Program-made: the position numbers and the translations under genes
In this document: in pieces, positions 48,554 through 54,636 of the stretch
Numbering within the stretch: the stretch's first letter is position 1
How the letters are laid out: every line of letters starts with the position of its first letter
The notes under the pieces: model-generated
The model's input: the letters and a program-made list of their open reading frames with translations, nothing else
Database searches by the model: none
Told to the model about the DNA's origin: nothing
NCBI RefSeq assembly: GCF_000226295.1
Contig: NC_016024.1
Location: 1,347,501-1,411,500 of the forward strand
Origin: Chloracidobacterium thermophilum B
GTDB lineage: Bacteria > Acidobacteriota > Blastocatellia > Chloracidobacteriales > Chloracidobacteriaceae
Length of the DNA: 64,000 nt
Direction: 5' to 3'

Positions 48554-48895
48554 CTAACGTTTCAGGACAATGCTGGCAATCCGGTCGGGGTCGCCCTTGA
48601 TACCGGATTCGGGAATGAGATTGCCGTTGAAGTCACACTGGGGATCGAGCCAGAGCTGAAGGTTGTGTTGCCGGGCAAACTCCCGGACATTGCCGATGGC
48701 TTCGTAGCGCGTGACAAAAAATTCATCCGGGCTGGGGGGAATGTAGCGCGCCAGGAATGACACCCCGGCTTCTTCGCGCTCAAAAACCGGCAGGGCATTG
48801 TCAAAAACCTTACGGATATCAAGTTGCTCACCGGCAAGGGGGGCAATGCGCCCGTCTGCCGTACGGACACACAGGACGTTGACTCTCTGCGTCAT
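48554..48895 (-). CDS. Small conserved-looking hypothetical protein
   Basis: 113 residues from ATG 48895 (MTQRVNVLCVRTADGRIAPL). No family is recognised. It is soluble, slightly acidic, with an alternating strand/helix pattern and one run of aromatic residues (SPDEFFVTRYEAIGNVREFA). The segment LWLDPQCDFNGNLIPESG is the only Cys-containing part. Single gene between hemW and the UbiA-like gene, same strand as both. Coding potential is supported by strong GC bias at third positions and a sensible start region. Role unknown. Confidence 0.6.
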   Translation of the reverse strand: MTQRVNVLCVRTADGRIAPLAGEQLDIRKVFDNALPVFEREEAGVSFLARYIPPSPDEFFVTRYEAIGNVREFARQHNLQLWLDPQCDFNGNLIPESGIKGDPDRIASIVLKR

Positions 48896-49024
48896 GGCCA
48901 GGTCCTTCAAGGTTCAAAAAGTTCAAACAACGCGGGGACTGGCAAAGACAAAAACCACGTGGCAGGCAAAGTTTACCTGATTGGGCTGGAACCGTGTGGC
49001 ACTACCGGGAATTTCATTCATCCA

Positions 49025-50946: not shown

Positions 50947-52332
50947 ATGGAAGCCATCATGTCAACGTCAACCGGGAAGCGCCTGGCGCCGATGCCCAAA
51001 GACCAACACTGGCTGTTCGGCAGTTTCCTTCCGGTGCGCAACGACCTGCTGAACTTTTACACCCGCGTGTTTCGTGAACTGGGCGACATCATCCGCTTTC
51101 GTGGATTGCCCGGCCTGTACTGGCATCTCGTTCTGCATCCGGCCTATGTCGAGCACGTGCTGGTGCGTAACCAGCACAACTACCGCAAGGGAAAAGTCTT
51201 TGACGGACCCATCGGACTCATCACGGGGAATGGTCTGCTGACAAGTGACGGCGACTTCTGGCGGCGGCAGCGCAAGCTCATGCAGCCCTCGTTTCACCGG
51301 CAGGCGCTGAGCCGCTTTGCGGCCACGATGGTGGCAGAAACAGAAGCGTATTTTGAGTTGTGGGACAACCGGGCGCGCCAGTCAGAAGCTTTCGATGTGG
51401 CCCAGGACATGGCACTGCTGACGCTGAACATTGCCGGGCTGACGCTTTTTTCAACACCGGTAGGCGAAAAGGCCGACGCTTTTGGGCAAAACCTGCGGGT
51501 GGCCTTTGATTTCGTCGGTTTCAGGATGCGTCCGACCTTACCCGTTCCGCTGTGGGTGCCAACTCCGTCCAATCTGCGTTTCAAAGCCGCCCGGCGGCGG
51601 CTGGATGCTGTTGTGTACCAAATCATCGAGCGGCGGCGAAAAACGCTCAATCCGGCGCCGGACCTGCTCTCGATGCTGATGGCGGCGCGGGATGAGGAAA
51701 CAGGCGAAGCCATGAGCGACACCCAGCTTCGGGATGAAGTCATCACCCTGCTGCTGGCCGGGCATGAAACGACCGCCATTACCCTGACCTGGGCCCTGTA
51801 CGTCCTGACCCGGGAGCCGGCTGTGGAGGCGCGGTTGTACGAAGAAGTCGTGTCGGTGCTGCGTGGGGCCTCGCCAACCGTGGAAGACCTCCGGCGTTTG
51901 CCTTACACCCGCATGGTCATCGAGGAAACCATGCGGCTGTACCCTCCTGCCTGGGGCCTGCCACGGGAGGCGATTCACGAAGACGAAATCGGTGGCTACT
52001 ACATTCCGGGACAAAGTCTCGTGGCGCTCAACCAGTTTTTGACGCACCGCCACCCCGATTTCTGGGAAGACCCTGAACGTTTCGACCCGGAACGCTTCAC
52101 ACCGGAGCGGTCATCCGGTCGTCCGGCCTTTGCCTACTTTCCGTTTGGCGGCGGTCAGCGCGTGTGCATCGGCAGCCAGTTTGCCCTGATGGAAGCCACA
52201 CTGGTTCTGGCCATGATCGTGCAGCGTTACCGGATCAGGCTCGTGCCGGGACACCCGATTGAGTTCGATACGATGTTTACTCTGCGGCCGAAATACGGCG
52301 TGCGGGTCACTTTTGAACGGCGGGGGAAATAG
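50947..52332 (+). CDS. Cytochrome P450
   Basis: 461 residues, soluble, no membrane anchor. Complete signatures: I-helix oxygen-binding AGHETTAITL, K-helix EETMR (ExxR), the PERF segment (DPERFDPERFTPER) and heme-cysteine loop FPFGGGQRVCIG. It resembles fatty-acid or carotenoid-oxidising bacterial P450s such as CYP175A1 (YPPAW after ExxR, and FPFGxGQRxCIG), so a carotenoid or lipid substrate is possible; substrate and redox partner cannot be told. The strong Shine-Dalgarno GAGGAGG supports ATG 50947. It follows pyrE by 13 bp, and its 3' end overlaps the SanA-like gene by 26 bp tail to tail. Confidence 0.95.
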   Translation: MEAIMSTSTGKRLAPMPKDQHWLFGSFLPVRNDLLNFYTRVFRELGDIIRFRGLPGLYWHLVLHPAYVEHVLVRNQHNYRKGKVFDGPIGLITGNGLLTSDGDFWRRQRKLMQPSFHRQALSRFAATMVAETEAYFELWDNRARQSEAFDVAQDMALLTLNIAGLTLFSTPVGEKADAFGQNLRVAFDFVGFRMRPTLPVPLWVPTPSNLRFKAARRRLDAVVYQIIERRRKTLNPAPDLLSMLMAARDEETGEAMSDTQLRDEVITLLLAGHETTAITLTWALYVLTREPAVEARLYEEVVSVLRGASPTVEDLRRLPYTRMVIEETMRLYPPAWGLPREAIHEDEIGGYYIPGQSLVALNQFLTHRHPDFWEDPERFDPERFTPERSSGRPAFAYFPFGGGQRVCIGSQFALMEATLVLAMIVQRYRIRLVPGHPIEFDTMFTLRPKYGVRVTFERRGK

Positions 52333-53042: not shown

Positions 53043-54077
53043 TCAGGCGGTGACAAGGGTGCGCTGGAGGCATTGCTGGCGCAGCTCAACCCGGTAGTCA
53101 TAGAGCACCCTGTGTACCTGCCGGGGTGTCACCCCACCCACCTTTTCGGCAATAGTCGTGTGCAGGGCGCGCTCCGGCGGCAGGTCCTTGCTCAAGTAAT
53201 CCAGATACTCGGCGATGATGGCGGCCCGCTGATCCGCAGTCGTTTCCGGCAGGTCCGGTGGAAACTTGCTGTTGTCATAGAGGACATCAATCCACCGCAG
53301 AACCTGGTACGGCGTGACAAAGCCCAGGTCTTTGGCGATGGCTTCGGGCAGTTCCTCATAAGGCTCCTGACCTTCGGTCAAGTAGCGGTAGAAGGCCTTT
53401 TCAATGAGGAAAAGCTGCTGGCGGGTTGGTTTGGGGGTTGGGGACTGGGCGTATTGTGACTGCGCCCACTGCCGGATCACCAGAACAACCGCATCCAGAC
53501 TGACGCCAAGCTGCTGAGCGATGAAGCGCCGCCGGCCGCCGGGTGGACGCTCGCCAGTTTCGATGAAGTGGCGGTACATCGCAATGGCCTGCTCCCGTTG
53601 CTCCGGCGTCAGATCAATGGTGGCCATTTCGAGCGCCGTCCGAAGTTCCTGGATAACCTGGGAGACAATGGCACGGCTGACCCACAACTGCTGGGAAATG
53701 GCCGTGTGAATGCGGCGCAGGTGAGGTTCAATGTGTTTGGCATCAAGCGGGATGGCGCTGCCCGGAACCGTCCGCATGTGTTGGAAAGCAGAAGCAATAC
53801 GCGCGCGCACTTCGGGAGTCAGGGTCCGAATCTGCGGCTGGCGTTGCCGCGCCACCCCTTTTTGCCGTTTACCACTGGGCAGGCCGACAGGCGGGCGGTT
53901 GCCCATGACGACCTTGGCCAGCTTTGGCGTGGATGGCGTCGGCGGTGCCATGTGCCCGGTGGCATCCTGCACGGTACGCCGGGGTTGGTGTTTGGCACAA
54001 AACCGTGCCTTGCGATCGGTGGAAAAAAACGTCGCACCACATTGGTCGCAGGAGCGGCGAAATTTCATCCCTGTCAT
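53043..54077 (-). CDS. Zinc-finger protein with four tandem HTH-like repeats
   Basis: 344 residues. Residues 10-30 hold a C-x2-C-x13-C-x2-H cluster (CDQCGATFF...RFCAKH). After a basic low-complexity linker (about 31-82) there are four related helical units at about 84-146, 155-205, 216-268 and 279-331, period about 61-70. Each has xLTxxQR, a helix (AIAMYRHFIETG; EKAFYRYLTEG; IAEYLDYLSKD), a second helix, then IA-x-x-LG-V-T-x-x-QV-x-R-V-I (IAQQLGVSLDAVVLVIRQW; IAKDLGFVTPYQVLRWIDVL; IAEKVGGVTPRQVHRVLYDY), like a winged or tri-helical DNA-binding core. No family is known to me. It follows nusB by 88 bp. Start ATG 54077. Confidence 0.75.
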   Translation of the reverse strand: MTGMKFRRSCDQCGATFFSTDRKARFCAKHQPRRTVQDATGHMAPPTPSTPKLAKVVMGNRPPVGLPSGKRQKGVARQRQPQIRTLTPEVRARIASAFQHMRTVPGSAIPLDAKHIEPHLRRIHTAISQQLWVSRAIVSQVIQELRTALEMATIDLTPEQREQAIAMYRHFIETGERPPGGRRRFIAQQLGVSLDAVVLVIRQWAQSQYAQSPTPKPTRQQLFLIEKAFYRYLTEGQEPYEELPEAIAKDLGFVTPYQVLRWIDVLYDNSKFPPDLPETTADQRAAIIAEYLDYLSKDLPPERALHTTIAEKVGGVTPRQVHRVLYDYRVELRQQCLQRTLVTA

Positions 54078-54165
54078 GGTTTGCGACCTCGTTTGAGCGC
54101 CTCCATCAGATGCGCCGAAATACAAAGTGAACCTTTGGGAAAGGTATGCCACAGCGCAACTGAAA

Positions 54166-54636
54166 TCAACGCAGAGCCGTCGGTGGCGACGCTGGCAGGG
54201 GCGGCGGCGAACCCGTTTCGTCGAGTTCGCGCTTGATGGCATCCAGAATGCCGTTGATAAACTGGGTGGCTTCCAAGGTGCTGAAGCGGCGCGCAATTTC
54301 GAGGGCCTCGTTGATGACGACGGCCCGTGGCGTGTCGGGTTCGTGAAGGAACTCGTAAACTGCCATGCGCAGGATGTTGCGGTCCACGGCGGCCATGCGC
54401 GAAATGCGCCAGCGCTCGGCATGGCGGCTGATGATAAGGTCAATGTCGGCCAGGTGGGCGATAACTCCGGCTACGATACGGTTGGCAAAGGCCGGGACTT
54501 TCTCCCGGTGTTCCTCTTTGAGTTCGGTCAACTCGTTCCAGTAGCTCTCAAAGAGGTCCTCCAGGGAGGGCTGGCTCAGATCGTACTGGAAAAGCATTTG
54601 CAGCGCGCACTCGCGCGCACGGCGACGGGAACCCAT
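54166..54636 (-). CDS. nusB: Transcription antitermination factor NusB
   Basis: 156 residues, all-helical. It binds boxA RNA with NusE/S10 to prevent termination in rRNA operons. Seen: the N-terminal RRRARECALQMLFQYDLS, SYWNELTEL..., FANRIVAGVIAHLADID, the core RISRMAAVDRNILRMAVYEF, and AVVINEALEIARRFSTLEATQFINGILDAI. Upstream lies ribH (86 bp gap, same strand), the common ribH-nusB arrangement. The last 15 residues are Pro-rich and unconserved. Confidence 0.95.
   Translation of the reverse strand: MGSRRRARECALQMLFQYDLSQPSLEDLFESYWNELTELKEEHREKVPAFANRIVAGVIAHLADIDLIISRHAERWRISRMAAVDRNILRMAVYEFLHEPDTPRAVVINEALEIARRFSTLEATQFINGILDAIKRELDETGSPPPLPASPPTALR

Follow-up and report, generated by a model that had tools for sequence, protein, structure and literature searches.

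The locus and its surroundings

The window, the whole stretch of 64,000 nucleotides of Chloracidobacterium thermophilum B that was analysed, belongs to a genome of 3.7 Mb in two contigs. Its minus strand carries, in this order, a cysQ-like gene, kdsA, ribH, nusB, a gene for a protein with four predicted helix-turn-helix (HTH) units, and a gene for a DUF218 protein; DUF218 was identified with Pfam, while the other four neighbours are what we take them to be from reading their sequences. The coding sequence of the four-HTH gene runs from 54077 to 53043 on the minus strand, as originally predicted, and encodes 344 amino acids plus stop. Homologues start alike, a homologue in a Blastocatellia MAG is 82% identical, and a dN/dS of 0.11 compared with the closest congener indicates purifying selection. 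Elsewhere in the window, an ORF of 118 amino acids (48554-48910, minus strand) is 86-96% identical in two congeners and has no Pfam family above cut-off, and a cytochrome P450-like gene (50947-52332, plus strand) lies directly after pyrE, an arrangement that two congeners share; at locus L048 the homologue is likewise followed by a P450-like gene (30% identity).

The position of the gene next to nusB had been read as a hint of a transcription or RNA role. Examination of 18 loci did not bear this out: the ribH-nusB neighbourhood is kept, as in the window, in both congeners examined, while outside the genus ribH and nusB were found nearby at only 1/16 loci (L049), with nusB some 2.8 kb upstream of the homologue and two genes in the interval. 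The idea of a ribH/nusB operon was dropped, since the linkage is not conserved outside the genus bar this loose case, and the position beside nusB looks accidental. No gene neighbours are conserved across families; in several genomes of families f3 and f6 the downstream gene is presumably a bi-domain oxidoreductase, and outside those genomes other genes adjoin the homologue.

Dependence on nusB is further argued against by a conserved promoter-like element of the gene's own within the genus. This candidate element, TTGATT-17-TACCTT (54141..54169, minus strand), overlaps the nusB stop codon and is kept in 6/7 aligned species of the genus, where the conserved form is TTGATT-17-TAnnTT-like; it falls short of the threshold in a sigma-70 consensus scan, which found nothing in the stretch. 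A conserved leader, GCGCATC-N8-GCGC-N6-CGAGG, with a likely ribosome site was identified at 54087..54115 (minus strand) from the alignment of seven species. All seven retain, between nusB and the four-HTH gene, an inverted pair (GCGC...GCGC) together with a CGAGGTCGC block, and folding of the leader RNA gave ordinary energies and no strong fold. In its own genome the leader pattern matched the gene's own leader and one weaker-spaced site, on contig C2. In f3 and f6 (L011-L015 and L017-L019) a TTGA(A/T)G-17-TA(C/G)ACT-like element, read by eye, stands approximately 9-12 bases before the ATG, which suggests that the homologue there may have its own leaderless or near-leaderless transcript.

Protein layout

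The N-terminus carries a putative zinc ribbon (53988..54050, minus strand) with the ligands C10, C13, C27 and H30 in the conserved sequence GMKFRRxCxxCxxTFFSxDRKAxxCxK(H/C). The spacing C10-x2-C13-x13-C27-x2-H30 is exactly that of the original prediction and, together with the conservation of the ligands, fits zinc ribbon or treble clef knuckles (CxxC/H); no Pfam zinc family was above cut-off for the window protein, and AlphaFold gave no confident model of the ribbon. It is followed by a basic, Pro/Gly-rich and probably disordered linker (residues 35-84; 53826..53975, minus strand), which is variable in the family alignment and has a pLDDT below 50. Residues 35-83 have a net charge of +7, and the N-terminal 83 residues as a whole a net charge of +14.

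Four units follow on the minus strand, R1 (residues 85-149; 53631..53825), R2 (155-210; 53448..53615), R3 (216-271; 53265..53432) and R4 (278-333; 53079..53246), with a spacing of approximately 54-62 residues and short linkers in the repeat profile. These limits agree closely with those first proposed (84-146, 155-205, 216-268 and 279-331). The xLTxxQR start assigned to every unit holds literally in R2 only (DLTPEQR), the others being loose versions (TLTPEVR, KPTRQQL and ETTADQR). R1 carries an insert of about 11 residues in this family, R177, P178, G181, R182 and R183 are invariant in R2, and R219, F223, E226, W262 and L266 are invariant in R3. The recognition helix of R4, (T/S)PRQVHKVLxxYR, is the most conserved. 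R3 and R4 each carry a slight net negative charge (-2 and -1).

The four units are homologous and predicted to be three-helix domains

A family alignment of 28 homologues was built and the units were compared as profiles. Profile-profile comparison related R2 to R4 (E 2e-11), R1 to R2 (1e-8), R1 to R4 (2e-8), R3 to R4 (6e-6) and R2 to R3 (2e-4), with R1-R3 alone weak (0.006), while controls in which the same profiles were compared with reversed ones gave E-values of 0.05-0.5. When each unit type was held out of training, the median scores for R1-R4 were 23, 24, 9 and 37 bits, compared with 11 bits or less for shuffled proteins. Divergence is greatest in R3, whose held-out scores overlap those of the shuffles. 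The repeat profile counted four units in 20/28 members and three in 8/28, a count which is circular for training members, unlike the held-out and profile-profile tests. On these sequence comparisons the four units share a common origin and are not chance repeats, in line with the four similar units first described.

AlphaFold, run on a two-row alignment of the window protein and one relative, gave a mean pLDDT of 62 for the whole protein and about 63-95 per ten-residue block from R2 to R4, with three helices in each of these three units. R1, unsure in the whole-protein model, was refolded on an alignment of the eight repeat copies from these two proteins, and three helices were obtained at a pLDDT of 77. 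All four units are therefore predicted to be three-helix HTHs of the homeodomain/Myb type, the helix-turn-helix formed by helices 2 and 3, rather than parts of one non-repetitive domain. The best structural neighbours were homeodomain, POU, Pax, Cdc5 Myb, transposase end-binding, small terminase and sigma region 4 structures, including Tc3, TnsB, TnpE and the G20c small terminase, at Z-scores of 5.5-6.6; values near 6 are common among small three-helix bundles, and for these models they indicate a common fold, not kinship. The top Foldseek row was c-Myb, at a non-significant E of 0.13, and a BFVD match (Q2XUW9; E 0.0098, 17% identity, rmsd 17 A) was set aside as not interpretable.

No Pfam or NCBIfam model reaches cut-off on the window protein and none from PHROG or PADLOC matches, in agreement with the original, tentative claim that the architecture is novel; nor did a sequence search find a solved relative, and literature searches gave nothing on this family. 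Below the Pfam gathering scores, the window protein matched HTH_23 (20.3 against 24.6 bits) and HTH_11 (18.6 against 25 bits). The weak Pfam matches of the family are mostly to HTH families (HTH_23 in 19/28 members, HTH_11, HTH_28, Homeodomain and HTH_SB), the best HTH_23/HTH_11 match among members having an E of 0.00015, and matches to the Sleeping Beauty HTH were sub-threshold (PDB E 0.17). The protein represents a real, conserved and unnamed tandem-HTH family, new and uncharacterised, in which a familiar fold has an unusual layout.

Distribution and inheritance

The gene was found in 30/162 genomes of the window's acidobacterial class, as one copy in nearly all carriers, and is absent from every listed genome of the large family f4. 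Outside the class, 297 genomes sampled evenly from the whole phylum gave one carrier, G126, and the remaining 37 genomes of the class of G126 are without the gene. The G126 homologue has three units, and the ligands of its ribbon are spaced identically (C-x2-C-x13-C-x2-C); it lies at L042:1384-2700 on the minus strand and adjoins a ribosomal protein S20-like gene. Other phyla were covered by one contig scan, whose patterns were each taken from a single sequence and so detect close relatives only. Two second weak matches were taken as spurious: G009:C19 falls within the ORF of a sensor histidine kinase, and G042:C22 contains stop codons. A diverged paralogue in G013 (L079:38-1213, plus strand) has similar C-terminal units behind an unrelated, Pfam-less N-terminal region.

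On the gene tree the family labels change only the minimum number of times, so that vertical inheritance is the simplest reading. The four ligands (C/C/C/H in the window's family, C/C/C/C elsewhere) are kept in 20/20 four-unit homologues and absent in 8/8 three-unit ones, and f5 and f8 group as a single clade lacking both the ribbon and R1. That the gene is present or absent by whole families of one class, and that ribbon and R1 are missing together from these two sister families, would make this a tractable case for the evolution of a multi-HTH reader.

Recognition helices and proposed function

When one unit is compared between families, its recognition helix (the third) shows 38-63% identity, while the recognition helices of different units in one chain reach only 11-24%. 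Being unit-specific across families and unlike within the chain, the helices do not behave as interchangeable readers of an iterated site; the iterated DNA target of the original prediction, unlikely on these figures, was rejected. The other target suggested there, a long one, is the best reading, and it would allow RNA as well as DNA. The economical interpretation of the sequences is that the units read one composite, asymmetric site. Part of the unit-specific conservation could reflect packing rather than base contacts, and the HTH pattern alone suits protein- or RNA-binding uses too. A homeodomain-like unit covers about 4-6 bp, so that three to four units would span about 15-25 bp.

The reading to which we lean, by a modest balance of probability, is a lineage-specific, housekeeping-type regulator that binds DNA sequence-specifically as a monomer, its units reading different parts of a single long asymmetric site. 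It is favoured because of the homology of the repeats, the three-helix fold, the DNA-binding structural neighbours and the weak HTH matches in Pfam, as well as the unit-specific conservation of the helices, the basic N-terminus, the single copy and the family-consistent tree; the acidic R3 and R4 and the generic Z-scores near 6 count against it. Four consecutive units (three in some families) would lie along double-stranded DNA as one monomer, the third helix of each reading its own short sub-site, so that the whole would specify one long, asymmetric and directional site. The most conserved candidate contacts would be in R4 (RQVHKVLxxYR) and R2 (the loop GGRRR), the strongly basic N-terminal tail may add non-specific affinity, and the zinc ribbon, where present, might, at a guess, dock a partner such as RNA polymerase. 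We infer DNA over RNA as the target, a composite site, and a regulatory over an architectural role.

An architectural role is the first of the alternatives, in which the protein would be an abundant, nucleoid-associated one whose weakly specific HTHs and basic tail cover or bridge chromosomal DNA. All members are strongly positive (up to +40), the N-terminal tails of f5 and f8 are still very basic despite the missing ribbon, and a single-copy gene whose neighbours are not conserved across families would suit such a protein; however, unit-by-unit conservation of the helices exceeds what weak non-specific binding needs and the gene is missing from whole families, which makes this role unlikely.

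Rather improbable is an RNA-binding or RNA polymerase-associated factor, with units that bind RNA or a protein surface and a ribbon that contacts polymerase or ribosome. The combination of a ribbon with repeated helical units resembles the TFIIB-type plan, TFIIB-type structures are among the weak Foldseek matches and the gene adjoins nusB in one genus, but that adjacency is not conserved outside the genus, a large clade has no ribbon and the fold is of the DNA-binding type. We hold out little expectation for a bacterial transcription factor, basal or global and specific to this clade, that would follow a TFIIB-like plan, the ribbon docking on RNA polymerase and the four non-identical homeodomain-like units reading a long asymmetric promoter element.

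Lastly, the protein might be what is left, after domestication, of a DNA-binding module from a transposase or phage, its DNA-end-binding specificity kept or lost. Tc3, TnsB, TnpE and the G20c small terminase among the fold neighbours and the sub-threshold Sleeping Beauty matches point that way, but this origin is very unlikely given a resemblance generic for HTHs, the stable vertical inheritance, the lack of a catalytic domain and a search of phages, plasmids and viral contigs that gave no credible homologue; it concerns origin and is compatible with a DNA-binding regulator.

Comparison with known systems

Most bacterial regulators have one HTH per chain (AraC-type regulators two) and dimerise on palindromes for specificity. 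Three or four different HTHs in one chain, each conserved as a unit, would instead let a monomer read a long asymmetric site, as Myb and paired proteins of eukaryotes do. HTH_23 and HTH_11 are resembled here by single units. The archaeal and eukaryotic basal factors TFIIB and Brf resemble the four-HTH protein in having an N-terminal zinc ribbon (putative here), a flexible linker and repeated HTH-bearing helical units, and appear in weak Foldseek rows; the TFIIB repeats are, however, two five-helix cyclin folds, whereas in the present family the units have three helices and about 55-60 residues each and number three or four, so that it does not belong to the TFIIB family, and no kinship was shown.

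In paired domains and transposase end-binding regions, several homeodomain-like HTHs in a row read one long asymmetric site. Pax, Tc3, TnsB and Sleeping Beauty have a similar unit fold, but their units number two or three and are usually accompanied by a transposase core or other domains; the four-HTH protein has no core and its sequence matches to the transposase regions are below threshold. Myb/SANT repeats each have three regularly spaced tryptophans or aromatic stand-ins and recur about every 52 residues, a spacing similar to that of the present units; the window protein has W132, W204 and W262, not three in each unit, and is not a member of that family. No sequence kinship with c-Myb or R2R3 Myb was detected, and the four-HTH protein differs from them in adding a putative zinc ribbon and a fourth unit. 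The likeness to these proteins lies in tandem three-helix units of about 50-60 residues, joined by short linkers in one chain, which in Myb read DNA as a monomer, the mode that is proposed here for the four-HTH protein.
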